A stretch of 64,000 nt of DNA from the NCBI GenBank assembly GCA_015178975.1, contig WHVD01000072.1, positions 124,001 through 188,000 of the forward strand, given 5' to 3'. The notes beneath the pieces are model-generated. The model did no database searches. It worked only from the letters and a program-made list of their open reading frames with translations, and was not told where the DNA came from. The DNA comes from Hysterangium stoloniferum (taxonomy: Eukaryota > Basidiomycota > Agaricomycetes > Hysterangiales > Hysterangiaceae). The position numbers were made by a program, and so were the translations under genes. Positions 1 through 63,728 of this stretch are shown here, one piece after another. Each line of letters opens with the position of its first letter. The stretch's first letter is position 1.

Positions 1-459
1 CCATTTACATTGGTATGAAACCTGATCCTGTACACTACTACCCTTCAGTTTAAATATTGACTCAGAATACCCATTTTGAATCCCCTCTCATTTGGAGAAG
101 CTTATGGAATAATAACTCTTAGTATCCCAAGCCTCTGGTACATAATTACACTGGGTACTGTACATTTATTTAAAATCTTTTCAACATATCAATGAGGATG
201 GAATAACAGTCCACAAAGGATGTAACAGAATAGTCAGTTATAGAACAGTTTAACAATGTTGTTTAACTGAATTTACTGGTATTTACTTGTGCTTAATTGG
301 AATTTATTGGAATTTGATTGGCTGAAATTTACTGAAATTTTATTGGATTTAGTGGATTTACAAGTTAATTGGTATTTCATTTAATTGACTGGCATGTTTC
401 TCCATTTCCCACCATTCTGAAATTTATTGTAATTGTTTTTAAGGACTGCAGCCACTGTT
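1..459. other. AT-rich stretch without a gene
   Basis: I see no gene here. From about 260 to 370 there is a loose run of aattggaattta/ttactgg words that resembles a degenerate short tandem repeat. The rest is unremarkable AT-rich sequence. No ORF with family resemblance crosses it. Confidence 0.5.
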
Positions 460-880
460 AGAGTTAGGTAATAATACATGGGTCCACACCCAGCACCCTT
501 GTGGAATCCCCACATGTGCACACTTGTGATGTAATGTGCCTGGTGGCACAACACAAGTGAGGCAGCCTGGGAGGGCCTGTCACACATGCCCACACACATG
601 TGTTTGTGACATATGTATGTGCCCAGTAGCACAATGCGAGTGAGGTGGCATGAGGGCCTATTGCATCTGCCAGCACCCACATGCACATTGTGTTTGCAAA
701 CATGTGCCCGAACTGGTGCAGTGGTGACCCCCAACCCCCCCACACATATGTAATATGCCAGGTTGCAAGGTGGGGGGTGAGAGGCCATTGCACCTGCCAG
801 CACCCTTGTGGAACACCCACATGAGCACATCTGTGATGTAATACACCTGGTTGCACAATGCAAGTGAGGCCAGCATTACG
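460..880. repeat. Degenerate minisatellite, gtgaggtggcatgagggcc family
   Basis: Phrases such as gtgaggtggcatgagggcc, tgccagcacccacatg and catgtgtttgtgacat recur several times in diverged form. The same phrases form a clearer array at 1340-1625, so both blocks belong to one minisatellite family. Long open frames on the minus strand here are Cys/His-rich translations of the repeat and show no family resemblance. Confidence 0.6.
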
Positions 881-1339
881 CTGAGACTTAAGGGTGGCAG
901 GGCAGTGGGCAGTGGGATGAAAGGGTGTAGAGATATGTGGGAGACAGTCCATGATGCTGGTTGTAGTCCTGGCATTGTCATGAAACTTGAAGGGGAATTG
1001 GTGTAGTTTTTGATCATGGGTGCTGAAGTGGCAGTGCAGCTGGGTGAGATTTGATTGTATGGAGAAATATGAAGTGTAAAGGGGCCATACGGACTGCATG
1101 GGCTATGGATGATGTTCAAGTGTGAGAGATGGTTATTGATGCATGAAACCACACCTAACACTTCCAGCCATGCTTGTTGCAATGAGCAGTCATACAACTG
1201 CAGAGAAAAAGCACTGCTGGATCCCTGAGACTCTGAGATTTCCATGGTTCCAAGAACTAAAATAAATGGCAGGTTTAGAACAGTGCAGGGGGCACATCAT
1301 ACCCACATGTGTGTTCATGACATACATACATGCCTGGTT
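881..1339. other. Spacer between two minisatellite blocks
   Basis: I see no gene in this stretch. It separates two blocks of the same degenerate minisatellite. Open frames on the minus strand extend into it from the repeats, but they have low-complexity composition and no recognisable domain. Confidence 0.4.
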
Positions 1340-1625
1340 GGGTGATGTGAGTGAGGTGGCAAATGAGGGCCAATTGCACCTGCCAACAACCATGCAAAGT
1401 ACATGTCATGAACACACACAACACAAGTGAGGTGGTGCATGAGGGTCCATTGTGCCTGCCAGCAACCATGCAAAGTGCATGTGATGAACGTGTGTGACAT
1501 GAGTGAGGTGGTGCATGAGGGCTCATTGTGCCTGCCAGCAACCATGTCACAAACACATGTGACATGAGTGAGGTGGTGCATAAGGGCCCATTGCACCTGC
1601 CAGCAACTATGTGCTTGGCAATCCA
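1340..1625. repeat. Minisatellite, unit about 76 bp, four copies
   Basis: The phrase gtgaggtgg followed by atgagggyccattg and cctgccagcaaccatg starts near 1350, 1426, 1503 and 1569, giving spacings of about 76, 77 and 66 bp. Copies differ by substitutions and a short deletion in the last full unit. Related degenerate units lie at 460-880. Confidence 0.75.
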
Positions 1626-2084
1626 CATGAGTTGGAATGTCATCATGGTGACACATGATGGCAATTTGTGTGACAATGGTGTGCTATTGTGGGTGTGGGA
1701 AAGCTAAGGCTCACTTCACTCGCAGATACAGACTGTGGGAACCTGGCTGCTCACTTTGCTCACAGATGCTGACCAATGCTGACAAATAGTGACTAAGCAG
1801 CACTCATGGACCCACCAATGTGAATTCACTTATACACAAGCCTGAAAACCCTTGTTATGCTGTGGGGTGGTTGCTTTGCAACCTGCCCTACTGCTCACTG
1901 CAGGCTCTGGCTTGTGGGGGGGCCCCCCCGCATCAACAACTTTTAAGTATTTCTAAAGCTCATTGTTTGAGAAAGGAAAGTCTTCAAAGAACGGAAAGTC
2001 TTCAAAGAACGGACAGTCTTTAAAGAATGGAAGCTGTTCAAAGAATGGAAGCAAAGGGAAACAAAGCTGACAAAAGGGAACAAA

Positions 2085-2825
2085 GGAAACAACGGTTACA
2101 AAAGGAAACAACGGTTACAAAAGGAAACAACGGTTACAAAAGGAAACAACGGTTACAAAAGGAAACAACGGTTACAAAAGGAAACAACGGTTACAAAAGG
2201 AAACAACGGTTACAAAAGGAAACAACGGTTACAAAAGGAAACAACGGTTACAAAAGGAAACAACGGTTACAAAAGGAAACAACGGTTACAAAAGGAAACA
2301 ACGGTTACAAAAGGAAACAACGGTTACAAAAGGAAACAACGGTTACAAAAGGAAACAACGGTTACAAAAGGAAACAACGGTTACAAAAGGAAACAACGGT
2401 TACAAAAGGAAACAACGGTTACAAAAGGAAACAACGGTTACAAAAGGAAACAACGGTTACAAAAGGAAACAACGGTTACAAAAGGAAACAACGGTTACAA
2501 AAGGAAACAACGGTTACAAAAGGAAACAACGGTTACAAAAGGAAACAACGGTTACAAAAGGAAACAACGGTTACAAAAGGAAACAACGGTTACAAAAGGA
2601 AACAACGGTTACAAAAGGAAACAACGGTTACAAAAGGAAACAACGGTTACAAAAGGAAACAACGGTTACAAAAGGAAACAACGGTTACAAAAGGAAACAA
2701 CGGTTACAAAAGGAAACAACGGTTACAAAAGGAAACAACGGTTACAAAAGGAAACAACGGTTACAAAAGGAAACAACGGTTACAAAAGGAAACAACGGTT
2801 ACAAAAGGAAACAACGGTTACAAAA
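2085..2825. repeat. 19-bp tandem array, 39 copies, no visible variation
   Basis: The unit is ggaaacaacggttacaaaa. The array is 741 bp, exactly 39 units, and by eye every copy is identical. Three units equal 19 codons, so a frame stays open through the whole array. That open frame is a by-product of unit length and lack of stops, not evidence for a protein. The uniformity implies recent expansion or strong homogenisation. The array could be longer in the genome if it collapsed in assembly. It occupies the 19-mer slot of higher-order unit 1. Confidence 0.95.
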
Positions 2826-3082
2826 GGGATCAACAGTTACAACAGGGATCAACAGTGACAAAAGGAAACATCGGTTACAAAAGGAAACATCAGTTACAAA
2901 AGGAAACAACAGTTACAAAAGGAAACAATGGTTGGAAAAGGAATGATGGTTACAAAGGGAAGAACAGTTACACAGTTACAAAAGGAACAACAGTCATGTA
3001 CAACAGGAACAAAGGTTACAACAGGAACAATGGTTACAACAGGAACAACGGTTACAACAGGAACAATGGTTACAAAAGGTGA
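2826..3082. repeat. Diverged tail of the 19-bp array
   Basis: Units continue at 18-19 bp spacing but vary: the aacgg core becomes aacag, atcag or aatgg, and aaaagg becomes acaggg or acagga. The single CpG of the perfect unit is replaced by CA or TG in several of these copies. The contrast with the neighbouring uniform array suggests homogenisation runs from one side only. Confidence 0.8.
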
Positions 3083-3109
3083 ATAGTTCCAATGATTGAA
3101 TTGACTGTC

Positions 3110-3420
3110 AACTGCACATAATTATTGTGGTCAACTGATTTATTTATTTGATTTAATGTTTTTTATTTTGATTCACTATTTTTTATTTTGATTCACTATT
3201 TTTTATTTTTATTTATTGGATTCTATTTTGATTTACTGTATCTTATTTTGATTTATTGTCTTTGATTTTGATTTATTGTATTTTATTTTGATTTATTATA
3301 TTGTTTTTGAATTTGTTGCATTTTATTTTGATTTATTTCATTTGATTTCCTTTATTTCTTATCTTCTTGATTTATCAAGTTTTATTTCCATTTATTTTAT
3401 TTTATTTGAATTATTCTGAT
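3110..3420. repeat. T-rich degenerate repeat (ttttattttgatttattgta-like)
   Basis: Successive words of about 20 bp, such as ttttattttgatttattgta and ttttgattcactatttt, are repeated with changes. The same kind of T-rich block, shorter, occupies the equivalent slot of the second higher-order unit at about 5195-5290. No gene is visible. Confidence 0.7.
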
Positions 3421-3499
3421 TTTATTCATATTTTCCCAGAAATCCTTATAGACCTCCCCCCAGGGATATGTGATCCTTCTCTGGAGAACTGGCCTCAGT

Positions 3500-3760
3500 T
3501 GAAGTGCCCAGGAAATGGTCCCATGAAGGGTGTAGGAAACACTTACATGAAGGGTGTGGGAAATCCTTACATGCCAGGTGTGTAACAATACTTCCACACA
3601 TGTGACAGAATACCTCCACACCATGAGAGTATACTCCTGCAAGCATTGAATTTGCTCCCACAATTGTAAATTGCTGCCATGCTGGCACAGAAAAGCCTCC
3701 ATGCTGACAAATCACAGGTTTTGCTTCCATGCTTATGTCATGGCACCTAGTGGTGTTATG
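3500..3760. repeat. 24-bp and ~20-bp repeat modules of unit 1
   Basis: The 24-bp words gtgtaggaaacacttacatga and gtgtgggaaatccttacatg are followed by weaker aatacttccacacatgtg-type words. The block starts just after the conserved gatccttctctggagaac line. Its counterpart in unit 2 lies at 5341-5760. Anchor copy 2 begins shortly after it. Confidence 0.65.
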
Positions 3761-3951
3761 ATGGGTTTGGGTGCCAAGCAACTAAAAAAGGCAACATGGA
3801 CCACCACCCACCATACAACTTTACTTTATTTGACAAGCCTGGGAACCCTTGCTATGCTGCAGGGCGGTCACTTCATGACCTGCCTCCCAAACCCCCCCAC
3901 ATCCACAACTCTAAAGTATTTCTGAGGTCCATTGTTGTAAAAGAGATACTG

Positions 3952-4617
3952 TTAGAACGGAAAGTGTTTGTAGAACGGAAAGTGTTTGTAGAACGGAAAG
4001 TGTTTGTAGAACGGAAAGTGTTCGTAGAATGGAAAGTGTTCATAGAACAGAAAGTGTTCGTAGAATGGAAAGTGTTCATAGAACGGAAAGTGTTCGTAGA
4101 ATGGAAAGTGTTTGTAGAACGGAAAGTGTTCGTAGAATGGAAAGTGTTCGTAGAACGGAAAGTGTTCGTAGAACGGAAAGTGTTCATAGAACGGAAAGTG
4201 TTTGTAGAACAAAAAGTGTTCGTAGAACGGAAAGTGTTCGTAGAACGGAAAGTGTTCATAGAACGGAAAGTGTTTGTAGAACAAAAAGTGTTCGTAGAAC
4301 GGAAAGTGTTCGTAGAACGGAAAGTGTTCGTAGAACGGAAAGTGTTCATAGAACGGAAAGTGTTCGTAGAATGGAAAGTGTTCGTAGAATGGAAAGTGTT
4401 TGTAGAACGGAAAGTGTTCATAGAATGGAAAGTGTTCGTAGAACGGAAAGTGTTCGTAGAACGGAAAGTGTTCATAGAACGGAAAGTGTTTGTAGAACGG
4501 AAAGTGTTCGTAGAACGGAAAGTGTTCGTAGAACGGAAAGTGTTCATAGAACGGAAAGTGTTCATAGAACGGAAAGTGTTCATAGAACGGAAAGTGTTCG
4601 TAGAATGGAAAGTGTTC
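3952..4617. repeat. 18-bp tandem array, 37 copies, variants mostly at CpG
   Basis: The unit is gtagaacggaaagtgttc and the array is 666 bp, exactly 37 units. Copies differ mainly at two places: aacgg/aatgg/aacag and ttcgtag/tttgtag/ttcatag. These are the two CpG sites of the unit, changed to TG or CA. Because 18 is a multiple of three, several frames on both strands stay open and give repetitive pseudo-proteins, which I do not treat as genes. Diverged relatives (aaagaacggaaagtcttc) occupy the same slot of unit 1 at about 1970-2045. Confidence 0.93.
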
Positions 4618-4842
4618 GTAGAACCCATTACAAAGGAATCAACCATTACAAAGGAATCAACCATTACAAAGGAATCAATGGTCACAAAAGCATCAACAGT
4701 CACAAAAGGACACAAAGTTCACAAAGGGAAACAACGGTCACAAAGGGAAACAACGGTCACAGAGGGAAACAACGGTCACAGAGGGAAACAACAGTCACAA
4801 AGGGAAACAACGGTCACAAAGGGAAACAATGGTGACAAATGA
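4618..4842. repeat. Mixed 18/19-bp repeat modules
   Basis: The 18-mer accattacaaaggaatca is repeated about three times, followed by intermediate forms and then 19-mers of the type gggaaacaacggtcacaaa. The latter are sequence relatives of the perfect 19-bp unit in higher-order unit 1 and sit in the corresponding slot. Confidence 0.8.
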
Positions 4843-4860
4843 AAATGACAGCTACAAAAG

Positions 4861-5158
4861 GTGCAACAGTGACAAAAGGTGCAACAGTGACAAAAGGTGC
4901 AATAGTGACAAAAGGTGCAACAGTGACAAAAGGTGCAATAGTGACAAAAGGTGCAACAGTGACAAAAGGTGCAACAGTGACAAAAGGTGCAATAGTGACA
5001 AAAGGTGCAACAGTGACAAAAGGTGCAACAGTGACAAAAGGTGCAATAGTGACAAAAGGTGCAACAGTGACAAAAGGTGCAACAGTGACAAAGGTGCAAT
5101 AGTGACAAAAGGTGCAACAGTGACAAAAGGTGCAACAGTGACAAAAGGTGCAATAGTT
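4861..5158. repeat. 18-bp tandem array gtgcaacagtgacaaaag, about 17 copies
   Basis: The unit gtgcaacagtgacaaaag alternates with gtgcaatagtgacaaaag, and one copy lacks a single A near 5084. The core agtgacaaaag is a relative of ggttacaaaag in the 19-mers. The open frames on both strands follow from the unit length and are not genes. Confidence 0.88.
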
Positions 5159-5194
5159 TCAAAAGTAGCAATGGTTTCAATCAAACATTGAGTT

Positions 5195-5300
5195 GATCTT
5201 ACTGTCATGTATTGTAGTTTATTTTACTTTATGTAATTTAGTTTAGTTTATTATATTTTATTTTAATTTATTGTACTTAGGAGTCAACGGTTACAAAAGG
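5195..5300. repeat. Short T-rich module of unit 2
   Basis: Words such as tttagtttattatattttatttt match the T-rich block of unit 1 in position and composition. It is followed by a stray copy of the ggttacaaaaggagtca element and then by the conserved gatccttctctggagaac line. Confidence 0.6.
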
Positions 5301-5340
5301 AGTCATATGGGATCCTTCTCTGGAGAACTGGCCTCAAAAT

Positions 5341-5760
5341 TCCTCCATTGAAGCCCATGGGAAATGTGCCCCATGTGTAGCATGGGAAATGGTCCCATAA
5401 GCAGCATGGGAAACGGTTACGTCAACGGCGTGGGAAATGGTTATGTCAACGGCATGGGAAATGCTTATGTGAACGGCGCAGGAGAGAGTCGTGGGAAATA
5501 TCTCCATTAGGGCATGTGAACTGGTTCCACGAATGTGAGAAATACTCCCGTGCATGTAACAATACTCCTGCGGCATTACAGAATACCTCCATGCACCCTG
5601 ATATAATACTCCCACGGATGTCAAAATACTCCCGCGGATGTAAAAATACCTCTGCGCATCACAAAATACTTCTGCGTGTGACATAATACTTCCACACCTG
5701 TTACAAAATACTCCCACGGTGCCAAAAATACTCCCACAAATGCCAAAAAGGCTCCGTATT
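5341..5760. repeat. 24-bp and ~21-bp repeat modules of unit 2
   Basis: The 24-bp words catgggaaatggttatgtca recur about four times up to 5480. They are followed from about 5520 by words of the type aatactcccacggatgtca, spaced about 18-23 bp. The order matches 3500-3760. From 5760 to 6003 there is no gene, only an AT-rich ata/tata run before the third anchor. Confidence 0.7.
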
Positions 5761-6233
5761 TGCTCCCATGATGACTAATACCGAAATTCCAGCGCTAATA
5801 TTAGTCACACTCTCCCACACAGAAGCTTCAGGCACTGATGCACCCTCATTGGGATTTTTTGACCCTCATGGGGAAGCTCGGGTGCTCCATGCCCTTACGC
5901 ATTGGGGCACCTGTGGTGCCTAAAAGTGCCCACCACCCACCGTACAACTTCACTATATATTGATATATACATGTATAATATAATAATAATATATATAATA
6001 TAACAAGCCTGGAAACCCTTGCTACACTGCAGGGTGGTCACTTCATGACCAACCCCACTGCTTGTCAGGGGCCCTGAACCCCCCCATGTCCATGACTCTT
6101 AAGTATTTCTCACCAATTCTAAGTATTTCTCACAATCACTATTAGAAGTTAGAAGCAAACAATCAACATCCATTAAAACTTCAATCTAATAATACATCTT
6201 TGTATACTATATTTACTGTTCTCTTTGTCTCCT

Positions 6234-6730
6234 TTAATAATATTTTATCTTATTCCAACTTCTTCCTCTTGAAAGTCCCACATACAGTTGCCCCTGTCCA
6301 AACACTGTCATTCTCAAATCTATTCCCACCACTTTCAAAGACTGTCCTGGTGACTTGTTAATTGTCATTGCAAATGCCAACTGCACTGGAAACTGAATAC
6401 AATGCAGTTTAAATGGCAGTTGATCATCATTTGTAATTATTTTGATCTGTGAAATAAATGCCAATTTCCCAGTACATGGTCCAGTTGAGATCCACACTTG
6501 AAGCAAATGATTTTCCATTTTCAGCCAGTCGCAACTGTGTCCCATTGAAAAGCCCTCTCTGTGTGGATTTATGATCTGTAATAACATCAAAGGTACTCCT
6601 GGCTTCACCTCAAGTCAACTTGGTGAGATTCCACCAAAATTTAGGCTGTTCAAATACTCTACAGTATACATCTCTGTCTCACTGTCTCTCTCTGCAGTAT
6701 CAGCACTGTGGTACACATGACAGAAGGCTC
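6234..6730 (-). pseudogene. Helitron PIF1-like helicase, C-terminal fragment
   Basis: Minus-strand translation gives the C-terminal part of the PIF1-family helicase of Helitrons, which unwinds DNA during rolling-circle transposition. Recognisable family segments are VKPGVPLMLL, the FPVQLAFAMTINKSPGQS block (helicase motif V region) and GQLYVGLSRG (motif VI). Upstream of the longest ORF the frame continues with EYLNSLNFGGISPS and is broken by a TGA near 6619 at a position usually occupied by a basic residue. The Rep/HUH domain and helicase motifs I-IV are absent. No Helitron ends (TC/CTRR with hairpin) were identified. It lies directly left of an unexplained ORF. Confidence 0.85.
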
Positions 6731-6744
6731 AGAAAACTAATGAC

Positions 6745-7191
6745 ATGGAAAGTTCGGGAGCAGCCAAAATTGGGGAAATTGAAGTGCCAAATACGGATAG
6801 TACAGGCATTGAGCTCCTCAAGGACACCATCAACACGTTGGTTTTTATCGGAATGGAACTTATGAAAATGCAGGATGCACTGGAGTGCCATAATGATATC
6901 CAAGAAAAGGGTTTTCATTTGTTGACCCGGAATTTCCAGAGGCAAAGCGAATTTCTGGAAAAGGTAATGGTTAGCATCATTGTTATTGCAGTTTCTGAGA
7001 GGTTTTCCGATAAGGCAAGGGAGCAGCCAAATGATCCATTGGCAGAATGTGTCAAGAAAAGGTGGGAGTCAGGAAAGGGGCCGGGAAGTGAGGATGAAGA
7101 AGTGCAGGATATGGTGGAAAGTGCGGAGATTGCGGATGATACAGGAGTTGAAGCAGAAGGAGGATTTGGGATGTCAGAGACTTTGAAGTAG
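6745..7191 (+). CDS. Hypothetical 148-aa protein next to gypsy 3' end
   Basis: I do not recognise this ORF. It encodes 148 residues. Residues 20-90 are probably helical and include a hydrophobic stretch EKVMVSIIVIAVSERF. The C-terminal third is acidic (PGSEDEEVQDMVESAE). It starts about 15 bp after the last Helitron helicase similarity and stops 86 bp from the stop of the oppositely oriented gypsy pol, so the two are convergent. It may be an antisense ORF carried in the 3' region of that retroelement, a fragment of a host gene captured between elements, or a chance ORF. Its composition is less repetitive than the shadow ORFs nearby. Confidence 0.4.
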   Translation: MESSGAAKIGEIEVPNTDSTGIELLKDTINTLVFIGMELMKMQDALECHNDIQEKGFHLLTRNFQRQSEFLEKVMVSIIVIAVSERFSDKAREQPNDPLAECVKKRWESGKGPGSEDEEVQDMVESAEIADDTGVEAEGGFGMSETLK

Positions 7192-7277
7192 TTGCAAATA
7201 AAATTTGACTTGTACGATTTCAAAAACAAGCATGATATTGGAAGTGTCAGAAACTGGACAGAAGAAACAGAAAAAGA

Positions 7278-10200
7278 TCAGAGTGATGATAAAGGTCCGG
7301 GTTTGCTCAGATAAGCTGTGTGGAAGTCAGTAACAATTTCCATTGCATGTCCAAGTTCCGTGGCCAATATCCATGAAGTTTCCTCATCGGTACCTTCATA
7401 TCCTGCCCATTTGACTAAATAGAGCAATTTACAAGTACGTCAGTGATTATTGATTTTAGAATCCAAAATTTCGGAAACTTCAAATTCAGGGTCTCTGTCA
7501 ATGATGACCAGAGGGGGTGGAGGTTGAATACATTCCGGGATTTTGTTAGGAACACAAGGTTCTAACATGGAAACGTGGAAGACAGGGTGGACTGCTTGCA
7601 TACTATTGGGAAGTCAGAGAGTCCATGAGAGTGAACCAGCTTGTGCTATAATTTCAAAAGGGCCTAAGAATTTCTCAGCGAGTTTTTTAAAAGGTCGGGT
7701 GGTACAGAAGAATTGAGCTTTTACAAAAACCTGATCACCAATTTTAAAATTAGGAGGCGGGATCCTGTTTTTGTCCATGGAATGTTGGTAATATTCCTGG
7801 GTGGAAGAAATAGCTTTCCGAAGTTCTTGATGTAATTTATCGAGGTCAGTAATAAATTCTTGAGCACAGACAGAAGCCAAATCTCATTCGGAATGTACTG
7901 TGAGATTCAGATTATAGCCCTTGTTGGCAAAAAAGGGAGAGATGCCGGTAGTTGCATTCGGAGAGTTATTGTAGGCAAATTCTGCAATCGGAAGAAGGGA
8001 TTTCCAATTGTCCTGTTGATAGTTGCAATAAATGTGGAGATATTGTTCCAATGTTTGATTAACACATTCCATTTGTCCATCACCTTCCAGGTGATATCCC
8101 GAGGTGAAGTGTAGTTTCATGTTGAGGGCTTTTCTGAGGGCCTGGAAGAAATGGGAGACAAACTTGGAGCCTTGATCGGAAGTTATGTGAGACAGAACAC
8201 CATGTTTGGAAAATACGTGAATAATGAAAAGTTCCGCTAATTGTAAGGATGTAATTGTATCGTGAGTGGGTATGAAAATGCCTTGTTTCGAGAATCGATC
8301 CACAACAACTAGAATGGATGTAAAGCCTTCAGAAGTCAGAAGTTGCTCAATAAAATCCATGGAAATTGAGTTCCAGGGTTTTTCCGGTATTGGGAGTTAC
8401 TTGAGAAGGCTGTACGGCTTATGTCTCTGGGTTTTAGAGCGTAAGCAGGTGGTGCATGACTTACAGAACTGGGTTATGAAATATTGGAGGTTGGGCCAAG
8501 TATATTCTCTACGGATTAGACCAAGAGTATTATTAATGCCGTAATGTCCAGATATTGAATGATCGTGTTTGCACTGAAGTACGCAGAGTCGGAGATTGTT
8601 GGAATCTGGAATGTAGATACATCCATCGAGACAGATAAAACCTTGAGAGTCTTGTGACCATCGGGGTTGGTCGGGATTATCAGGAACTTCTAGGTGTGGC
8701 TTGAGAGCCGGATCGGAAGTGAGTGCAGAAAGGATATCTTGATGTAATTGCTCAATGTCCATAATCATAATGCTATGCATAATTGGATAGTAGAGGGAAG
8801 TCGCTCAAATAGATGCAGAAAGTTGTTGTGTTGTAAAAACTGGTTTCAAGTTATGTGGATTAACAACAGCATAGGTACTTTCCCCCTCATTAGGATAGAC
8901 GTCCCATTGTCAAGTCATGGCATCAGGTTTTCCACCAAGATGACGGGGTCAGAAATGGATAATCATGTTGAAAGCAGAAAGGAATTCGGACCAGCAGGCT
9001 TGCCAGTGGGTCAAAAGTTTAGTGGTAGAAAAATATTCGAGATTTTTGTGATCGGTAACAACATCAACGGGAGTTGCAGAACCTTCAAGATAATGACGCC
9101 AATGTTTGAAAGCTTCAAAAATTGCCAAAAGTTCCTTATCATGAACGTTGTAGTTGAGTTCGGATACTGAAAGCATCTGAGAAAGGAATGCGACCAGATG
9201 AATTTCACCATCAGAAATGGAAAGAATTGCGGCAATTGCATAATCGGAAGCATCAGTTTCCACAATAATCGGAATGTCAGGTTTCCAATGAGAAAGAATT
9301 GGAGTGGAAGTGAAAGCATTTTTCAAAGTCTGGAAAGCAGAGCGGCATTTGTCGTCAAAGACCCAAGGTTGAGTTTTACGGGTAAGACAAGTAAGCAGTA
9401 TTGTAATATCTGAGTAATTCCAAATAAAATGATGGTAAAAGTTGGTGAAACCTAAAAATGATTGAATATCTTTGACTTTCCATGGTTTGGGCCAATCACG
9501 GACAACTTGAACCTTGGTTTCATCCATATGGAGGCCCTCAGGTCCAATAATGAAACCTAAGTATTCAATAGAATCCATGTCAAAGTAGCATTTTTTACTG
9601 GCGGCGAAAAGATTGTTTTTTTGGAGTTCTTCAGAAGACTTCATGGACTTGTTCATCGTGAAGAGCAGGACCCTCGGAAAATACCAAAAATGTCGTCCAA
9701 ATAGACTATAACACATACGTCAAGCATGTCGGAAAATATATCATTAACAAAACGTTGAAAAGCGGAAGGGGCGTTGGTAAGGCCAAACAGCATAACCAAC
9801 CATTCAAAGGATCCATAGCGAGTCCGAAAAGCAGTTTTTCATTCATCGCCCTTGGCAATTCGGACCAAATGATAGGCGTGTTTGAGGTCTATTTTGGTGT
9901 AGATCTGAGCTTTCCATGGGGCATCGAGTAAATTGGTAATGAGTGGAAGTGGATACTTATCTTTCCATGTCATGGAATTTAATCCTCTGAAATTGACACA
10001 GAGTCAAAGGGAGCCATCCTTCTTTCTGATGAAAAGGATGGGTGCTCCATACAGAGACTTTGAGGGACGGATAAACCCTATCGACAGATGTTCATCCAGG
10101 AACTCCCGAATAGATGAAAGTTCTGATTGGGATAATGGGTAAATAGGTCCTAACAGAGGGTTTGAACTGGGCTCAATATCAATTTTTAAGTTGTAGGGCC

Positions 10201-11116
10201 TATGTGGTGCAAGCTGGTCAGCTCTTTGCTTACTGAAAATGTCTGCGAAATCATGGTATTTTTTGGGAACTCCTTCCAGGTCAGCTTTTAGCTCAGATAG
10301 TTCTGGAGTTGCAAAACATCCAGATGCTTCATCAACTTTTACGCTGATCGAAAAACACTGTGATCTATCGAGTTTACTCGCCCTAACAAATGCTGAAGTG
10401 TTGATGAGAGAGATTCTTGGAGGTGTGGAGGTTTTGGTAGAAGCCAGAGGTGCCGTTGAGGCTGAAAAGGCTTTGGCCAGAAGAGATGCTGCAGGAGGAA
10501 TGGAAGTGTCAGGAATCTGGAAATTAATACTGCCCAATACCCAGTCAATCAACGGATTATATCAGGTGAGCCAGTTGTATCCAAGAACTACCAAACAGCT
10601 AGAGTCCAACTGTGTCATGAAAAAGGTAACCGTCTGGGATGTTCCACATGGGAACCAGATAGACATGTTGCAGGCTTGGGCAATTGCTGTATTGCTAGTG
10701 CCATCAAACAGATGCAAAGAAATTGTGGGCACAGAATGGAGTTTCAGATTATGTTTTGTGGCAAAGGTGGTATCTACAAAACAGTGTGTGGAGCCGGAAT
10801 CTATCAGAGCTTGGAATACTAAATTTCCAAGAAGGTCAGAGACGAGTTTTACAAATAATGAATCGGGATTAGAGAGAGCGGACACATTGAGACGGATAAT
10901 CTCGGAAACATGGAGAGAGTCAACGCAACCCTCTGTCCGTGCAGATTCCGGAGGGTTGCTTACTCTTTTTTCAAGTCTGTGGCGGGTTTTTCCTTTGACA
11001 TTGCAGTCGTAGCGGAAGTTGCCACATGCATGGGCTTTGGAAGAGCTAGATTTAATGGTACAGTCGGAAACCTTGTGTCCACCTTTCCCACAGAAAAGGC
11101 AGAGGTCATTGTCCAT
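7278..11116 (-). pseudogene. Gypsy element 1 pol (zinc knuckle, PR-RT-RH-IN-chromodomain)
   Basis: Order on the minus strand: zinc knuckle CLFCGKGGHKVSDC (CX2CX4HX4C); protease with LIDSGSTHCF; the RT start FIRKKDGSL near 10010; RT active-site region YLDD near 9710, where the frame shifts; RNase H with ETDASDYA and DKELLAIFEAFKHW; the integrase HHCC finger (HDHSISGHYG ... CKSCTTC); the integrase core with VVVDRFSK, SDQGSKF and QMECVNQ, so D, D and E are present; then a C-terminal chromodomain (LLYLVKWAGYEGTDEE). In-frame TGA codons at 10562, 10004, 7884 and 7440, and a TAA at 8397, fall where the family has Arg or Gln. Product if intact: a polyprotein for reverse transcription and chromatin-targeted integration. 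Confidence 0.9.
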
Positions 11117-11119
11117 ACG

Positions 11120-12205
11120 TCATTGTTTCTCCTTCGGGGTGAGTTTACCATTGGTGCCCAACAAATGGGAAATGTTGGGTTTGTCGGAAGTTGACTGTTT
11201 ATCCTTGTTGAATTTCTTGTCTTTTTTCCGATCGGAGTTTGATTTGCCAGTATTAGTGCCAGAGTTGCCAGTGTTATTGCCTGAGTTGTTGCTGGAAGAC
11301 TTGCTAGTCGATGCCTTGTTGTTCTGAAAACATTCCATTGGATTCTCTTGGGAGACCTCAGCTTTTCATTCCCAATAACAGGCATCAGATGTCTGAGCTT
11401 TAATCTGCATGAGTTGGAGAGTTTTCAACTTTCCATCTTTGCAGATCTCATCTTTAAGGTGTGACGGAAGTCCCATATAGAAATGGTGCCTGAGGGCAGA
11501 ATCGTCCCATCCACATCATGCAGTGAGGGAACTTGACAAGATAATCGGAGACTCCTTGATTGTCCTTCATCTTGAGCATCATTAATTCATTTTCTGCTTC
11601 ACTGGATTGATCGTAAGGTCTGAAATTAGTTTCCAGTTCTTCCACAAATGCATCCCAGTCGTCGAGCCATACAGGTGTCTCATCGGATATTCCAGATAGT
11701 CCAGGTTCGAACCAATCCTGAGCAGTATCCTTGAGATAAGAGAGCATGAAATTGACTTTTCAATTGTCAGATTTAAATGCAGCAGGTCATCACGGAAACT
11801 GAAACGGCATTGGAGAAGGAAATTCTTCAATTCTTTTGGATCCTTGCCAGTAAATGGTTCAGGTTCTTTGACTCCAGTGCGGGATGATTCTTTACTTTCC
11901 TCAGCAGATTTCAAATAGTCAGCAGATTTCAAATAGTCAGCGAATTTCACAATGGAGTTGATAAACAACATTTCAGTTGGTTCATCAGAAGATTTCTTTT
12001 TCGATGTCACCGGCTGATCTTCTGCTTCATTGTCAGAAGTGTTGTGATTGTTGGGATCCTTCATTACCTCAGTAACTTCCTCGGTAACTTCCTTGATGGA
12101 AGCTGATTTTGTTGGCTGATTTGGGGTTTCAGGTTGGGTGGTATAAAGTTGCAATGGGGATTGAAGTTGAGATGGTCCTTTGGCAGCTTTGTGTTTGGGA
12201 CGCAT
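11120..12205 (-). pseudogene. Gypsy element 1 gag
   Basis: The frame starts 34 bp inside the LTR with MRPKHKAAKG. It has the retrotransposon gag/capsid block EPEPFTGKDPKELKNFLLQC followed, after a frameshift near 11750, by LKDTAQDWFEPGL and LDDWDAFVEELETNF. A further frame change leads to an Asn/Ser/Lys-rich linker (11120-11338) ending in-frame with TGA at 11120, two codons before the zinc-knuckle ORF. Family knowledge: capsid protein packaging the RNA. It is broken by at least two frameshifts and one stop. Confidence 0.85.
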
Positions 12206-12239
12206 GATAAGCGAGTCGCAGAATTGAGATCTGATATAC

Positions 12240-12808
12240 TGTTAAGTGCCGTGTCGGGAACTTATTCTGGAACTATCAGAAAGTCACCGTGAAGTCGGGA
12301 ACTACCAGATAAGATCAGGACATTGGCTTCAGCTTATGTGTTGCACCTCTACGCAAATGCTCAAAGTCCTTAATTTCAGAGGTGAGACTTACAATAGAAG
12401 ATACGTATATTCAGAGTTCCGAAGAGTTCCAAATATCAAGCGTACAGAAAGATGGAAGAGGGAATATGAAACTAAGTCGATATCAGATCTAAAGTAAAGT
12501 ACAAATTCGCGGAAACTAATATAAGTCTTCTCATTATTATACTACAAACTAAGACCATAATAAGACGGAAATAGAAGTATTCTGAAACAGGAATACAATA
12601 AGACATATCGGGGAGACAATAATCTGAAACGGAAATATAATAGACAAACGAGTGAATACTTGTCAACAGACAAATTACCAAATGCAGAACAAGGAAAGAA
12701 TGCGGAACATACAGTAACTATGATGTTCCGTAGTCGGAGGTTGGAAGTTGGAAGTTGGAAGTTGGAAGTTGGATATTCAATTGAAACATCCAGAAATGGG
12801 TTGTAACA
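12240..12808 (-). repeat. 5' LTR of gypsy element 1 (569 bp)
   Basis: The ends are TGTTA...TAACA in either orientation. The same sequence, diverged, forms a clean solo LTR at 27585-28128, which fixes the borders. A (ttggaag)n run of about four copies at 12740-12772 is expanded relative to that solo copy. The core gcttcagcttatgtgttgca (12327-12346) is shared, as reverse complement, with four other LTR copies in the window. The sequence just inside the LTR on the minus strand (gtatatcagatctc) resembles a tRNA-primer site only weakly. Confidence 0.9.
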
Positions 12809-16473: not shown

Positions 16474-16513
16474 GGTTATAGGGCCCCCGTAGCACACTCA
16501 CTGCAAATTCGAC

Positions 16514-19500
16514 ATGTCAAATTCCCAAAGTACCAACTCCATTGAGAAGGCCTCTTCTCGTCTTTATGACATCCCATATCTAGATGACACCGGATCAAAT
16601 TTCCAGTCATGGAAATATCGCACTCAAACAGTTCTCGAAGTTCGTGGATTGTCGAAAGCTCTCGAAGGCACTGAAACAGATCAGTCAAAAATCCGGGAAG
16701 CTAGAGCCCAGATTGTACTGACCTTGAAAGATGAACCTTTAAACGGAATCATCGGCCTCGAGTCTGCTAAGGAGGTGTGGGAGAAGTTATGTGCTCGATA
16801 TGAAGGAAAAGGGACACAAAAAGTAGCTTACCTCATTGGTGAACTATTCCGAAGTAGCCTTGTGGACTCAGAAGCACTCGAACCACAGATGAATAAAATG
16901 CGGACTACTGCCAGATCACTCAGAGCACTTGGAAACGAGATAAAAGACAACCTTATTGCCATTGCAATCATCCTATCACTTCCCCCTTCCTACTCGACTC
17001 TCCAGACCATCCTTATGTCACTCGAAGATCAGAAGACTGAAGATGTTATCGCAAAAATCCTTGCCGAAGAATCTCGCTGAAAAGAATCAGCCACACAAGC
17101 AGCATTTCTAGCAAAATTCCGGATCAATGCAGGAAAATCTAAAGATACATCAGCTTCTGGGAAAGAGAAGAAGAAGAAAAAGGAGTACAAGAAATGTGAT
17201 AATTGTGGAAAGAAGCATCCTGGCGAATGCCGAAAACCCAAAAATGATTCAAAAGATGATAAGACTGACAAACCAAAGATTCCTGAAGCCACAGCCAAAA
17301 TCGCACAAACGGCAGTATCCATAAGCCAGCCGATCCAACTCTTCATGGCTAGTGAACGATCCATAAATCGCAATATCCAACAGAAATGGATAGTTGACTC
17401 TGGTGCATCAGCTGCCATGAGCTCACACCGTGAATGGTTTGCCACTTACCAAAAACTTGAAGAACCCATAAAAGTCTGGTTGGGTGATAACAGCTACATA
17501 CTCGCTGTAGGAGAAGGCTCAGTAAAACTCGAACTATCAATTGGGAATCAGAAAATCACCGGCATTGTACAACAAGTCCTACATGTACCAGAATTGCATG
17601 GAAATCTTCTATCTGTGTCCAATCTCACACGAAATGGACTTCAGGTTGCTTTTGAAGCGAATCAAATGTGTCGCATCTATAATGAGCAAAATCAGCTTGT
17701 TGGAGAGGCACACCTGGAAGGAAACATATACATTCTTCATGCCGACGTCGTACTATCTGAACAAATCCACATCAGTAGGATTATCCCAGGAAGTGAAATA
17801 AAATCACAAGCACTTACCGCAGTTGCTAAGGAGTCGAAGGGTGACATAAAATTGTGGCATCGCTGCCTAGGTCACATTAGTGCCAAATCCGTCCTCAAAA
17901 TGGTTCGAAAAGGGATGGTCAAAGGAATGTCAATTGTAAAAGGCAAAACAATTGATACCTCACCTTGTGAACCATGTCTCCATGGAAAGCAAACTCGCAA
18001 ACCCATTCCGAAGTCCACTGAAAATCGAGAAACAACCATTCTTGCACGAATACATTCAGATATTTGTGGAAAAATGCCAACAAGATCACACACCGGATAT
18101 GAATACTTCATCACATTTATTGACGATGCGAGCCGAATGCTTGACCTCACATTTCTGAAGGAAAAGTCCGAAGCACTTGAAAAGTTCGCCGCATTTGTAG
18201 AAAGGGTCGAAGTCGAGACTGGAATGCGAGTTACAAAACTGAGGTCAGATGGTGGTGGCGAATACATCTCCAAGAAGTTTGAGACATACCTTACTTCAAA
18301 GGGCATCAAGCATGAGAAGACAAATGCATATACACCACAAGAAAATGGCGTCTCCGAAAGGATGAACCGCACTCTTGTGGGAAGTGCACTGTCAATGCTT
18401 AAAGATGCCGGGTTGCCCAATTCTTACTGGTCGGATGCTGTTGAATATGCTGGACAAATACACAATGTGGTTCCAACACGAGCCTTATCAGATTCAACTC
18501 CATATGAAGCCTGGTCTGGAAACTTACCAGATATTAGTCGTTTTCGGATTTTTGGCTGCACCGCATATGTGCTAATCCCGGAAAACAAACGACGAAAGCT
18601 AGATGGGAAGACCATTAAATGCATATTCATTGGTTATGCAAGGGACAAGAAGGCTTACCGTTGTATCGACCGAAGCACTGGTCAGGTGTATGAAAGTCGC
18701 GATGTCGTATTTGTTGAAGACATGGCCAGAACACCTGAAAGAGTCGTCATTGAGGTAACCCCAAGCTCAAACGACACAGGAACTGCTCGAGCAATCACCC
18801 CAGTTGAATCTATCGAAAATAACAGTGACGTACCAGACTTAATGGAAGTTGAAGATTCAGATGACGAAGGAGACAATGAACTACACGATAGTTACTTCAA
18901 TGAGTCAGATGGTGATCAAGAGGAAAATAGCAGCTCACATACCTCGGAACCCATGCAGTCCTCAACAGTGTCGGAAACCTCACAATCAACATCCCTACCT
19001 GTGGCAAATGAAAACTCTCGACCAGTCCGCACCCGAAAAGCTCCAATACGAGATGATGACAATCGTTATTTTGTTACTTCGTATGGACCTAAGAATCAAG
19101 AGTCAGTGAGCAAAACTCAAGTGAATGTGGTCCAATCAATCATAAATGAACCAGAGACTTACGAAGAAGCAATGTCTCGACCTGATGCACCTCAATGGAA
19201 AGCCGCCTGTGCAGAAGAACTTCTATCATTTGTCAAAACAGAGTTATATGATGAGGTTGAAAGACCCAAAGGCCACCGTGTTGTGGATTGTAAATGGGTT
19301 TTTCGACTAAAACGTGGACCAAATGGTGAAATACTTCGATACAAAGCCAGGCTGGTTGCAAAAGGGTTCACTTAAGTTGAAGGGATCGACTATAATGAAA
19401 CCTTCGCACCAGTAGTCAAATTTACATCCATTCGAACCCTCCTAGCTTTGGCAGCTGAACTTGATCTAGAATTGCACCAGATGGATGTCAAAACAGCTTT

Positions 19501-20701
19501 TCTCAATGGGAACCTCGAGGAAGAAATATTCATGCACTTACCTCCTGGATTTCGCAAGCCAAATACAGTTTGGAGGCTGAAAAAGGGCTTATATGGGTTA
19601 AAACAAGCTAGTCGAGAATGGTACAAAAAACTACGTACCGAATTTGAGGCACTGGGTTTCATTCGTTGCCATTCAGACCATGGGATTTTCATCAAACGTG
19701 ATCATGACATCCTTGTGATCATTGCTGTATACGTTGATGACCTATTGCTGCTGTCAAATTCAATGAGCGCAGTTGAAAAGGTCAAGGAAGATCTCAAACG
19801 GAGGTTTGAAATGACTGACCTAGGTGAAGTACGTTGGATCCTGGGAATGGAAATAACCCGAGATCGCAAAGCCCACACACTCTCTGTCTCTCAGCGCCGT
19901 TATGTGCTTGATATCCTCGAGCGGTTCGGAATGTCGGACTGCAAAGCTGTTATAACACCTATAGAACCAAACATGTCACTGACGAAATTGACGGCTCCAG
20001 AAATCGAAGCAAAAGCTTACCAGAGTGCAGTTGGATCCTTCATGGATGCCATGATAGGCACTCGCCCAGACCTTGCCTTTGCAGTGGGCGTGCTCAGCCA
20101 ACATTGCGCAAATCCTGGAAAGGATCACGAAAAGGCGATTAAACGAGTCTTGAGGTATCTAAAGGGATCATCAGATCTAGAAATCGTTTTCAAGAGATCT
20201 GGAAACACAAAAGTTAGAGGATATGTCGATGCAGACTGGGCAGCGGACAAAAATGATCGCAAATCACTTACTGGGTACATTTTCTTGCTCGCAGGAGGTT
20301 CCATCAGCTGGAGTTCGAAGAAGCAGTCTTCTACTGCTCAGTCCAGTACTGAGGCCGAGTATATGGCTGCGGCACATGCTGGAAAGGAAGCCCTCTGGCT
20401 TAGGTCATTTATGGAAGAACTCGGTTTTATTCAAGACTCACCGACACCACTCTATGTGGATAACCAATCTGCCATAGCCCTCTCAAAAAATCCAGAGTCA
20501 CATAGTCGAATGAAACACATCGGCGTACGCTATCATTTCATACGCGATCATGTCGAATCTGGTGAAATCGAACTGTTATACACTCCAACAGGTGAACAAG
20601 TTGCTGACGCACTAACCAAAGGACTCACAAAGATTAAGTTGGATAAGTTCATTGTTGGGATGGGATTAAAAAGAATCGGGAGTGTTGTGAACGCGCAGTG
20701 A
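16514..20701 (+). pseudogene. Copia gag-pol polyprotein, two in-frame stops
   Basis: One frame of 1395 codons runs from ATG 16514 to TGA 20699-20701, broken only by TGA at 17078 and TAA at 19373. Order: gag (UBN2-like, residues 1-190); a short zinc knuckle CDNCGKKHPGEC; protease WIVDSGASAAMSS; integrase HHCC finger (LWHRCLGH ... CEPCLHGK); integrase core with HSDICG, SDGGGEY and QENGVSERMN; reverse transcriptase with KTAFLNGNLEEEIF and YVDD; RNase H with YVDADWA, STEAEYMA and YVDNQSAI. PR precedes IN and IN precedes RT, as in copia. All catalytic residues I can check are present. The stops fit single C-to-T changes (CGA and CAA). The first lies upstream of the zinc knuckle, so programmed readthrough is unlikely. 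Confidence 0.95.
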
Positions 20702-25018: not shown

Positions 25019-25740
25019 TGTTACGACCGTGTCGCAACCCTATCGGTCCCGAAGTTATCGCCACTTGTCAATGTTTCAAGTCATCCTCTCGGAAACCATC
25101 GGCCCCGAAGCTGACGAATGTTTTCGCGAAGATCAAACTCTGTTTACGCCCATGTCAAAATAACTCGTATTGTCTGGTCAAACTTTGATACGTCCCCTTT
25201 ATTATGTTGATCTGTCCAATCTTATGTTTCGCATATGTCTATCTATATTTGTAGTCCTTGAACTATTTCCTTTTATCGTAATCCCGCTCTCGGTTATCAT
25301 CGGCCTCCGAACTAATCATAAACTTCCCGTTCCTAGTCAAGCTTATTGTTAATACCGTGTTCCGCCCTTCTCCCCATTAGTATTTTCCAGACGCCTGTTA
25401 CTTGTATATGAACCCACTGTAGTTGTAGTCACTAGGCAATCAGAATATCGACTCAGAATACCCTCATACGCCTGTATCAGTCTCATACTAAGAATCCCCC
25501 CATCCACCTTCACGTGCGCTCGCCCACTCCCGGCCCTGACCCCTTGGCCCGACGCTCGACTTGTCCTTCTATTCCGATCGGTATCACGCTAAAAGGTACT
25601 CGTTAGGATTAGTCTTCGCCCACCCGAAATTTAAGGACATCCTACGGATATTTGCGAGGGCGCAGCACATAAGCTGAAGCCAAGTCCTTCCGATCGCTCC
25701 CTGTCGGCCACCGACATTAGTCAGTTTTCAGTTCTTAACA
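25019..25740 (+). repeat. Solo LTR nested in gypsy element 2, target duplication CTGGT
   Basis: tgttacgaccgtgtcgcaac...cagttcttaaca is 722 bp, flanked by CTGGT at 25014-25018 and 25741-25745. No internal retroelement sequence is present, so it arose by LTR-LTR recombination. It carries the shared core gcgcagcacataagctgaag at 25660-25679. It interrupts pol between the linker and the protease. Confidence 0.95.
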
Positions 25741-27584
25741 CTGGTCCTCCGATCAACTCGTGCATTGGTTGATTGTGGTGCAACTGGTTTGTTCATTGAC
25801 CGAGACTATGTGCATGAAAATGGAATTGCCACACGATCACTCCTTTACCCAATCCATGTGTACAATGTAGATGGGACACCCAATGAAACAGGTTCAATCA
25901 CTGAAGTTGCTGAACTGGTCCTCCGTTACAAGGACCACTCAGAGAAGGCATTATTTGCAGTCACCAAGCTTGGGAAGGAATCCCTTTTGCTTGGCTATAC
26001 CTGGCTTCGGGATCACAATCCTGAGATAAATTGGCAGACACAAGAAGTCAAGATGACTTGTTGCAACCCACACTGTAAAGAGTGTAAAATATCAACCCTC
26101 CGGGCACGTGAAGAGATCAGATGTTTACAAGCTTGCAGAGATGCCCCAGCCCCAATCTTTATATTGGAGGAAATAGAGGAGCCAATTCCTGACTTGCTAC
26201 CTGATAAGTCTGATGAGGTGGAGGACCAAATTGATGACTCAATTGAAGATGGAGATCAGGTATTTGTCACAGCGCTGCACCCAGAACTGACTCCAAGTCA
26301 GATTTGAGCATCTGCTACAGTGTCTCAGCAATTAGCAGAGGCTAGTGCAAGGTTCAACACACCGAGTCCAAAAGGTTTCTGAGATGTTGTCCCAGAGTAT
26401 CTCCACACCTTTGAAGATCTGTTTCTAAGGAGTCATTTGATTCACTACCAGATTGAAAGCCTTGGGACCATGCAATTGAACTAATCCCTGATGCAAAATC
26501 AACCAATTGCAAGGTCTACCCTATGTCCCTCAATGAGCAGACAGAGCTGGATATCTTTATTGCTGAAAACTTGGCAACTGGTCAGATATGTCCTTCTAAG
26601 TCACCCATGGCATCCCCAGTTTTCTTCATCAAGAAGAAGGATGGCTCCCTTCGACTTGTCCAAGATTATCGTATACTGAATGACCAAACCATAAAAAATC
26701 GATATCCACTCCCACTCATTTCAGAGCTGGTAAATCAATTGAAAGGGGCACGGTATTTCACAAAGCTTGATGTTAGATGGGGCTACAACAATGTTCGCAT
26801 AAAAGAGGGGGATGAGTGGAAGGCTGCCTTCCAAACAAATAGAGGGTTGTTTGAACCCTTCGTCATGTTTTTTGGTCTCACTAATAGCCCAGCAACCTTC
26901 CAGACTATGATGAATGATATCTTCCAGGATTTGATTGCTGAAGGAGTCATATGTGTCTACCTGGATGTCATCCTCATCTTTACCAAGACACTTGAGAAAC
27001 ATTGCCGTGTCCTATTACTGGTCCTTGAGCGTCTTCGTGAGTATAAGCTCTATCTCAAGCCAGAGAAATGTGAGTTCAAAAGAACGAAGATTGAATACCT
27101 GGGCCTAGTCATATCTGAAAACCAAGCAGAGATGGACCCAATTAAGGTGTCAGGTGTGCGTGATTGGCCCACTCCAACTAGCCAGAAAGAGGTACAAGCC
27201 TTCCTTGGGTTTACCAACTTCTATAGGTGATTTATAGCAGATTTCTCCCACCATGCACGACCACTGTTTGACCTCACAAAAAAGGAATCAGCTTGGAGGT
27301 GGACTATAACAGAGGACCAAGCTTTCCTTTTCCTCAAGGATCTGGTTACAAATGCACTGATTCTGACAATGCCCGATGACTCAAAACCATTTCGAGTTGA
27401 AGCTGACTCATCAGACTATGCCACTGGAGCAGTCCTCTCACAACAGCAGGACAATGGAAAGTGGCATCCTGTTGCCTTTTACTCAAAAAGCTTGTCAGCT
27501 GTTGAATGCAATTATGAGATCCATGACAAAGAGATGCTTGCAGTGATCCATGCCTTTGATGAGTGGAGACATTTCCTAGAGGGG

Positions 27585-28128
27585 TGTTACGACCCGTTCC
27601 CGGATGTTTCAATATCCAACTTCCAATCTCCGACTACGGAACATCATAGTTACCGTATCATCCGCATTCTTCCCTTGTTCTGCATTTGGTAATTTGTCCA
27701 TTGACAAGTATTCACTCGTTTGTTTGTTATATTCCCATTTGGGAATATTGTCTCCCTAATATGTCTTATTGTATTTCCGTTTTAAGAACACTTCCGTTTC
27801 CGTCTTATTATGGTCTTAGTTTGTAGTACAATAACGAGTAGACATATATTAGTTTCTGCGAATTTGTACTTTACCTTAGATCTGATATCGACTTAGTTTC
27901 TTATTCCTTCTCCCGTCTTTCTGTACACTCGATATTCAGAACTCTTTGGAACTCTGAATATCCGTATCTTCCATCGTAAGTCTCACTTCTGAAATTAAGG
28001 ACTTTGAGCATTTGCGTAGAGGCGCAGCACATAAGCTGAAGCTGACGTCCTGACCCTATCCGATAGTTCCCGACTTCCCGGTGACTTTCCAATAGTTCTG
28101 GAATAAGTTCCCGACACGGCACTTAACA
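27585..28128 (+). repeat. Solo LTR nested in gypsy element 2, target duplication AGGGG
   Basis: tgttacgacccgttcccgga...gcacttaaca is 544 bp, flanked by AGGGG (27580-27584 and 28129-28133). It is the same family as the 5' LTR of gypsy element 1 (in opposite orientation) and fixes that LTR's borders. The shared core is at 28022-28041. It splits the RNase H domain exactly between ...HFLEG and the codons for EVWTDHKN. Confidence 0.96.
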
Positions 28129-31963: not shown

Positions 31964-32570
31964 TTAAAGGGAGGGCACTGTTAGGACCAAACAACCCACC
32001 AGGTCCTGGGAGCTTCATTACAAATACAAACCTCTATCACTCTCTTTTCATACTAGTCAATGACTGGACCTCACCCAGAGATCCCAGCTCTCATGATATA
32101 TGAAATACATATCTGTCTCGATCAGTTTTGGAACCTGGTTGTCAGTTAGTTTACAATGTCCCATGTGAATGTTCCTGTTTCAGTTCAGACTTTCACCAGA
32201 CTTCAGTCACCACTGTCCATTCTGTTCCACCTGTTTGTTTATCTATTCCACCAGTATTGTAGTATGACCCATCTATATAAACTAGGCTAATTTGTATTGA
32301 CAATCCAACAGAAAATCAACTAGGTTACCCCATACTTTGGATTAGTTAAATATAACCTCTATTTGCACCCCTCAGAACCTGTGGGCCCTCTACCCAAGAG
32401 TCTTCAGAATTCCCATCACTATCCCTTTACCCTTCCAGACCTCTCATTCATCCCTTTGAAATTGGACACAACAATCTCATGAAGGCACAGCATATAAGCT
32501 GAAGCCAAGTCCTACCTGCATACCAGACAGGTTTCCCACTGGACCCTACTTGTAAGCCCAGAGCTTAACA
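31964..32570 (+). repeat. Polypurine tract and 3' LTR cutting into the TPR gene
   Basis: ttaaagggagggcac (31964-31978) is followed by an LTR from tgttaggaccaaac to cccagagcttaaca (31979-32570, 592 bp). It carries the shared core (ggcacagcatataagctgaa at 32484). The 5' LTR of this element is not recognised. Its right end abuts the tetratricopeptide gene fragment, and bases tgttaa of the LTR end, read on the minus strand, supply that fragment's stop codon. Confidence 0.75.
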
Positions 32571-33262: not shown

Positions 33263-33369
33263 CATCCAGTGTGACAAGCTTCCGGTACCTTCATCTATCC
33301 TGTCAGATGGAAAACTATTTGGTCTACAAAACGGTGTTGATTTATTTCGACACTGACTGTAACCACCTT

Positions 33370-63447: not shown

Positions 63448-63728
63448 CTTTTAAAATATGCACAAATGTCATGGTTATACAAGATTATCTGGGTTGTTAC
63501 CTAATCTTTGGGATAAAATACATTCTCTAGTATCTCTGTGACTTTTAAAATATGCACAAATGTTATAGTTAAACAAGATTATCTGGGTTATGACTTAATC
63601 TTTGGGATGAGATGCATTCTCTAGTATCTCTGTGACTTTTAAAATATCCACAAACATCATGGTTAAACAAGATTATTTGGGTTATGATGTAATCTTTGGG
63701 ATAAGATGCATTCTCTTGTATACATGTG
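63448..63728. repeat. 94-bp tandem repeat, three copies
   Basis: cttttaaaatatgcacaaa starts at 63448, 63542 and 63636, giving two periods of 94 bp. Shared phrases per copy are caagattatctgggtt, taatctttgggat and gcattctctagtat. Copies differ by about ten substitutions, many of them C/T or G/A. Confidence 0.9.

Follow-up and report, generated by a model that had tools for sequence, protein, structure and literature searches.

Helitrons with a CTTG 3′ end and ordered minisatellites, probably stacked by repeated insertion, in the genome of Hysterangium stoloniferum

Head-to-tail arrays of Helitrons are known from plants and bats, where they have been cited as signs of rolling-circle replication or of circular intermediates (named, in the passages available, in PMC5876387 and PMC5148889). 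From fungi, the paper on FoHeli of Fusarium oxysporum and its relatives gave the case of one element inserted 2 bp upstream of the 5′ end of another, and described three tandem copies in Metarhizium and multiple 5′ termini, and proposed self-insertion; in the accessible part of that paper these are single cases, and the ends of FoHeli are of the Helitron2 type (PMC5148889). The arrangement described here is alike in kind and comes from a stretch of 64,000 nucleotides (the window; positions 124001-188000 of contig C525) of the basidiomycete Hysterangium stoloniferum (assembly GCA_015178975.1; 111,116,353 bases in 554 contigs). Two adjoining units of about 2 kb, each a succession of minisatellites, are, with a probability that we put at about 0.83, Helitrons without a RepHel gene that became stacked as different copies inserted repeatedly at the A|T preceding a 5′ end.

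The Cg_HINE non-autonomous Helentrons of the oyster are likewise rolling-circle elements that spread satellite-like central arrays through a genome; in what is accessible of their description they have one, exceptionally two, repeat clusters, mostly of 140-180-bp monomers (PMC7492417), whereas in the family described here the minisatellites number about six or seven, have repeats of 17-24 bp and keep a fixed order, and the target is A|T. HELPO2 of Pleurotus ostreatus, for which a 3′ CTTG end has been reported, resembles the family in this end, in insertion at AT, in a subterminal hairpin and in RepHel (a likeness of described features); the 5′ ends of HELPO1 and HELPO2 were given as T[C/G], and, as far as the available text of the paper goes, intact non-autonomous copies are reported for HELPO1 only and the word tandem is absent from the main text (PMC4289320). 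Helitrons have also been listed among the abundant transposons of basidiomycetes, in passages that hold no detail on ordered minisatellites or stacking (PMC7550596). Already in print are tandem Helitrons, fungal examples of self-insertion and of multiple 5′ ends, and Helentrons that carry one or two satellite arrays; a Helitron with six or seven ordered minisatellites, or stacking on such a scale, was not found in titles and abstracts, which lay largely outside subscription journals.

An earlier note on this stretch, made from the letters alone, had described two units of about 2 kb with the same succession of short repeats, each opening with a copy of one anchor sequence, and a third anchor that begins a further unit. 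This description is borne out: the Tandem Repeats Finder (TRF) calls an 18-bp, a 19-bp, an AT-rich 20-bp and a 24-bp array in the same order in both units, which by BLAST also align in order, the bounds are about 1836-3832 and 3833-6002, and the third anchor starts at 6003, all three anchors being homologous. The note was also right that a uniform 19-bp module is amplified in unit 1, but its 39 copies become 38 that are exact and in register (2100-2803) inside an array of 52; the amplification of the 18-bp modules in unit 2 holds, with 37 copies of the first and 17 of the second (4854-5165) by TRF. At the place of the second 18-bp module unit 1 has 4.5 copies of a different 18-bp repeat (2999-3079), and for the last 20-bp module TRF makes a call in unit 2 alone, with a BLAST match in unit 1 at 3578-3619 (81%). 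Both modules, clear in unit 2, are short or decayed in the other unit.

A Helitron family of this host has the anchor as its 3′ terminus. At four loci measured (L012, L022, L021, L035; loci and contigs are cited by such handles) the distance from the end of the helicase sequence to this terminus is 194, 230, 234 and 236 nt. L035 encodes both PIF1 and Helitron_like_N (Pfam), and Helitron_like_N has at least 151 matches in the genome (best 150 of 342 candidates scored), which gives the family related copies with Rep and a PIF1-type helicase, as expected of canonical Helitrons. Two RepHel copies directly abut in L035 (CAGGCTTG|TCAAATAAGTG), the succession there being helicase, 3′ end (...CCCAGGCTTG), directly thereafter TCAAATAAGTGAAAGG, 20-bp repeats like the seventh module of the units (TRF), 24-bp-like repeats (by eye) and then a further Rep gene. 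A 5′ region of this kind is also present in the Helitron of L012/L036. From this layout it follows that the units share both ends and the 5′ repeats with RepHel-carrying elements. To judge by its sequence, the third anchor of the window is itself the end of a RepHel-carrying copy (6003-6721, minus strand; 83.6% identical to L035 over 779 aligned columns, with the similarity stopping at 6721); the helicase fragment that the earlier note saw beside the units is the helicase C-terminus of this copy, about 178 residues at 6184-6719 on the minus strand, broken by one stop and one frame shift.

The ends read A|TC...CTTG|T. Among 100 listed of 128 matches with at most two mismatches, every one of the 38 5′ ends that are exact and not preceded by G has A before its TC; at least 2 of these 38 sit in stacks after a TCA spacer, so that their A is a spacer base. 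The base after CTTG was T in 191 of the 194 listed 3′ ends, out of 207 places found with search patterns that require A or T 15 bases on. Helitron2 elements and Helentrons insert between T and T; here a host A precedes the TC. A 5′ TC joined to a host A is that of a canonical Helitron1, but since the 3′ end is CTTG and not CTRR, the family is a CTTG-ended variant and not a canonical Helitron.

The terminus can fold into a hairpin that is larger than the canonical one (16-20 nt at 10-12 nt from the 3′ end), the inner stem lying about 30 nt from the end and the outer arm reaching the end. An alignment of 33 anchors (32 of 36 rows plus L035; the partial rows at window 3780, L019:7572, L026:4997 and L027:2019 and a self-palindrome hit were left out) has pairing bases in 93.9% of the cells. 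At pair 7-75, 16 copies have C-G, 10 have T-A and 5 are unpaired; at pair 38-44, 14 have A-T, 13 G-C and 2 G-T, and 4 are unpaired. Three of five covariation measures beat shuffled controls, and three intact termini folded as single-stranded DNA gave z scores of −3.9 to −6.8.

Insertion can be read directly at one place. The two-unit array of L025 (5,696 bp) is missing at two paralogous places on the same contig, both full-length matches in which A|T is undivided: at L046 the sequence continues across A|T without target duplication, and L047 agrees with it, apart from a two-base difference close by. The flanks of both places also show some further small differences in length. One insertion set against two empty sites thus has the form known for canonical Helitrons, at A|T and without target duplication. 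Some insertions are hosted by Tc1-like elements (DDE_3 in L021 and L018). The site used in L023, and that of L021 two bases further on, are unbroken in all 7 Tc1-like copies viewed, on the 3′ side only; a search with the joined flanks of L018 gave 41 matches, every one to one half only (best 40 of 407 candidates scored).

Searching the assembly for the anchor, as the earlier note had suggested, showed it to be dispersed, and many loci carry the same modules in the same order. Twenty loci of 10 kb were fetched around the best matches (best 40 of 145 candidates scored). Over 21 units (the two of the window and 19 from 14 loci), with two similar modules merged, 166 of 175 module pairs stand in the canonical order, whereas 20,000 random orders gave 87 on average and 120 at most; the recurrence in fixed order is beyond chance. 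The count keeps all 21 units, and the 9 discordant pairs fall in L009, L018, L023 and L024b, whose bounds or hits are doubtful. Which module is long varies among copies, and units of a second kind carry repeats of 65-67 bp and of 15-21 bp beside their 5′ end. In the unit pairs L020b/L024c and L020c/L027a a single block is shared at 95-98% and the remainder at 65-70%; the interiors therefore look mosaic. The minisatellites would lengthen and shorten within each copy by slippage, unequal exchange and recombination, and would travel with it.

Of the 194 3′ ends listed, 131 are followed by a 5′ end of the family, recognised by motifs picked by eye, in contrast to the single cases of FoHeli. The junction is without spacer in 90, has a short spacer of units beginning with TC and ending with A in 31, and could not be parsed in 10; one exact junction occurs 33 times, its reversed control not once. 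The listed 3′ ends are spread over 100 contigs (a count that rests on hand-copied contig names), and Helitron_like_N domains recur at intervals of 7.1-7.2 kb in C153, C63 and C2. The spacers themselves (TCA, TCATCA, TCAA, TCATA, TCCA) look like products of cutting at A|T sites inside 5′ ends. At C51:36582-36962 the 5′ terminus is itself tandemly arrayed, nine copies following one another in 44-bp steps; A flanks the outermost copy and G flanks each of the remaining eight.

Our proposal for the origin of the stacks is as follows. A unit, read in transposon sense, begins at A|TC with a 5′ region whose 20-bp and 24-bp minisatellites are common to RepHel copies, continues with further minisatellites and closes with the foldable 3′ terminus at CTTG|T; the transposase would come in trans from RepHel copies. 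An inserted copy would still have A|TC at its 5′ boundary but G|T at its 3′ boundary, leaving only the 5′ side as a legal target. New copies would land there repeatedly and in one orientation, giving stacks of mostly unlike units. Whether the A|TC boundary is a target that each insertion restores, and one used frequently enough to account for the one-way stacks in which about two thirds of the listed 3′ ends lie, is in our estimate an evenly balanced question; if it is, the stacks are a time-ordered record of insertions, the newest at the 5′ side.

The commoner hot spot in the Tc1-like elements, A|TCTATATTATGG, is similar to the 5′ end of the element itself, a hint that the transposase may prefer targets resembling the end it cuts. 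Similarity was scored with a profile from 12 distinct 5′ ends against a background of 9,118 A|T sites of the window. Of 11 distinct Tc1-type flanks (10 distinct among 13 rows, and one moved there from the others), the 7 starting with TC lay at the 97.1-99.9 percentile and the 4 starting with TATC at the 26-74 percentile. A general preference for likeness to the 5′ end was considered and rejected: the other flanks (39 of 50, after removal of 7 microsatellite- or end-like ones and 3 duplicates and the move of one) scored above background (p 7e-8), mostly from their AT-richness (AT-matched z 0.27, standard error 0.18, 37 of the 39 scored). A near-identical spot close to the end of the Tc1-like transposon, AGA|TA|TGAT, was hit repeatedly (L021:8984, L023:5070 and 13 of the 194 listed 3′ ends; best 40 of 599 candidate copies scored).

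The stacks might instead be rolling-circle concatemers, one Helitron circle having been copied several times and integrated as a multimer, the units of which diverged later. The 90 junctions without spacer are the product expected of a closed circle, as seen for Helraiser circles in the part of that paper available (PMC4778049), and the tandem Helitrons of plants and bats have been taken, in the passages at hand, to speak for rolling-circle replication (PMC5876387). In one stack, moreover, L020a and L020c are mutual nearest relatives (95.7%; 2 of 17 anchors), although they stand two units apart. Yet among these 17 anchors (10 neighbour pairs in 7 stacks; the two anchors of L021, 4 kb apart, were left out) the immediate neighbour was the nearest relative in none, and therefore repeated insertion of different copies is favoured over concatemers; most stack neighbours here, unlike what copies of one circle would give, are not each other's closest relatives. 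The anchor of L020b is 99.2% identical to one on another contig and 92-93% to its neighbours. Eight unit pairs were compared at full length, the other comparisons being of anchors: L020b aligned end to end at 92% with L025b, on a different contig, and only in pieces at 68-80% with its neighbours, the adjacent L020a among them. Further points against concatemers are that neighbours differ in module variants and length and that 31 junctions contain a short TC...A spacer. We consider concatemers unlikely.

Several results weigh against the proposed reading of the units as Helitrons stacked by repeated insertion. Neighbours are slightly more alike than random members of a stack (mean 0.857 against 0.837; 6% of permutations as high), and the pair L020a/L020c makes duplication within a stack possible, as read from the anchors. 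Anchor CpG counts, a weak test, did not show the expected order of ages, with younger copies nearer the 5′ side (of 10 pairs, 4 went up, 4 went down and 2 were equal). Next to the L023 element, the 5′ side of the Tc1 target could not be found. As to the hairpin, the three copies of the window fold weakly (z −0.6, −1.7 and −2.6), and two of the five covariation measures (pairs with double change; further pair types) were no better than shuffles.

A higher-order centromeric or heterochromatic satellite, as the earlier note had suggested, here taken as one that happens to hold a Helitron fragment, would account for the hierarchical tandem organisation and the uniform sub-arrays. A satellite should form long arrays of like units at one chromosomal domain, but the 3′ ends lie on 100 contigs, the neighbours are mostly unlike, the unit ends are Helitron termini and the array is cleanly absent from A|T at the two paralogous sites, so that this reading is very improbable. 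The note's other suggestion, the inside of a large rolling-circle element, was right in kind and wrong in that each unit is itself a Helitron. Least probable of all is an artefact of the assembler, in which repeat collapse or mis-joining made the stacks or the copy numbers. Such arrays are hard to assemble, and the copy numbers of single minisatellites may be wrong, yet the same polarity recurs on many contigs and unlike neighbours are not expected of collapse.

Tandem Helitrons are usually read as traces of rolling-circle copying. With more than 100 junctions in one genome, and mostly unlike neighbours among those examined, the evidence points instead to insertion that recurs at a single renewable site, a route that thereby becomes testable. 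One transposon family can spread many minisatellites as a fixed package, which annotation of satellites could misread.

Both copies of the window lack the RepHel gene and lie on the minus strand, which is the transposon sense. Copy 1 (1836-3833, with its 3′ side at 1836 and its 5′ side at 3833) begins with anchor 1, the 3′ terminus with hairpin and CTTG end (1836-1954), followed by module 1 (18 bp, 4.5 copies, 1970-2050), the 52-copy 19-bp array (2082-3079, its last part, 2999-3079, being the 18-bp repeat that stands where unit 2 has module 4), module 5 (14 copies of an AT-rich 20-bp repeat, 3143-3426) and module 6 (24 bp, 3510-3582), all by TRF, by module 7 (3578-3619), which rests on the BLAST match to unit 2 only, and by the 5′ end (TCAAATAAAG, 3798-3833), which abuts the CTTG of copy 2 without spacer.

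Copy 2 (3834-5963) begins with anchor 2 (3833-3926), a 3′ terminus whose outer hairpin arm is deleted; deletions are present in anchor 3 as well. TRF calls module 1 (18 bp, 37 copies) at 3953-4624, modules 2 and 3 (18 and 19 bp) at 4625-4839, module 4 (18 bp, 17 copies) at 4854-5165, the short AT-rich module 5 at 5199-5275, module 6 (24 bp) at 5356-5478 and module 7 at 5558-5748, a 20-bp repeat like those in the 5′ region of the L035 and C223 Helitrons. The 5′ end (TCAATATATAG) lies at 5927-5963 and is followed by an AT-rich spacer to 6002.

To the left of copy 1, 480-1835 (minus strand; left limit approximate) is probably the 5′ part of a further, older copy with a t-type 5′ end at 1781-1835 and 76-bp repeats at 1350-1546; neither the window nor the 5 kb upstream yielded a 3′ end for it, L037 having no hit to the anchor. 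The t-type 5′ end also occurs in L011, L012, L020, L021, L025, L026 and L027, and at L012:3788-4583 a 19-bp repeat (GTGAGTGAGGGAGTGCGAC, 42 copies) stands beside it, placed similarly to the repeats at 1350-1546 of the window. An Rfam scan of window positions 1-7500 with E up to 1 gave no match, and five open frames in the repeats gave no credible Pfam domain, the repeat-like matches having no significant stretch or falling under the curated cut-off.

The unit at L027:1269-4954 has a second 3′-subterminal-like stretch after its first array and is possibly a composite of two elements. An open frame at L035:4530-5674, upstream of the Rep domain of a Helitron, also carries tandem repeats (15, 42, 72 bp and others). 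Elsewhere in the window there are a Ty1/copia retrotransposon with long open frames (16493-20701; RVT_2, gag_pre-integrs), pieces of Ty3/gypsy retrotransposons at 25678-29926, with a chromodomain, and at 7884-12241, and, at 32565-33290 on the minus strand, 126-bp tandem repeats encoding TPR repeats. A 94-bp tandem repeat of 2.9 copies lies at 63448-63721; a similar 94-bp unit, recognised by eye, stands on the reverse strand at L028:427-606.

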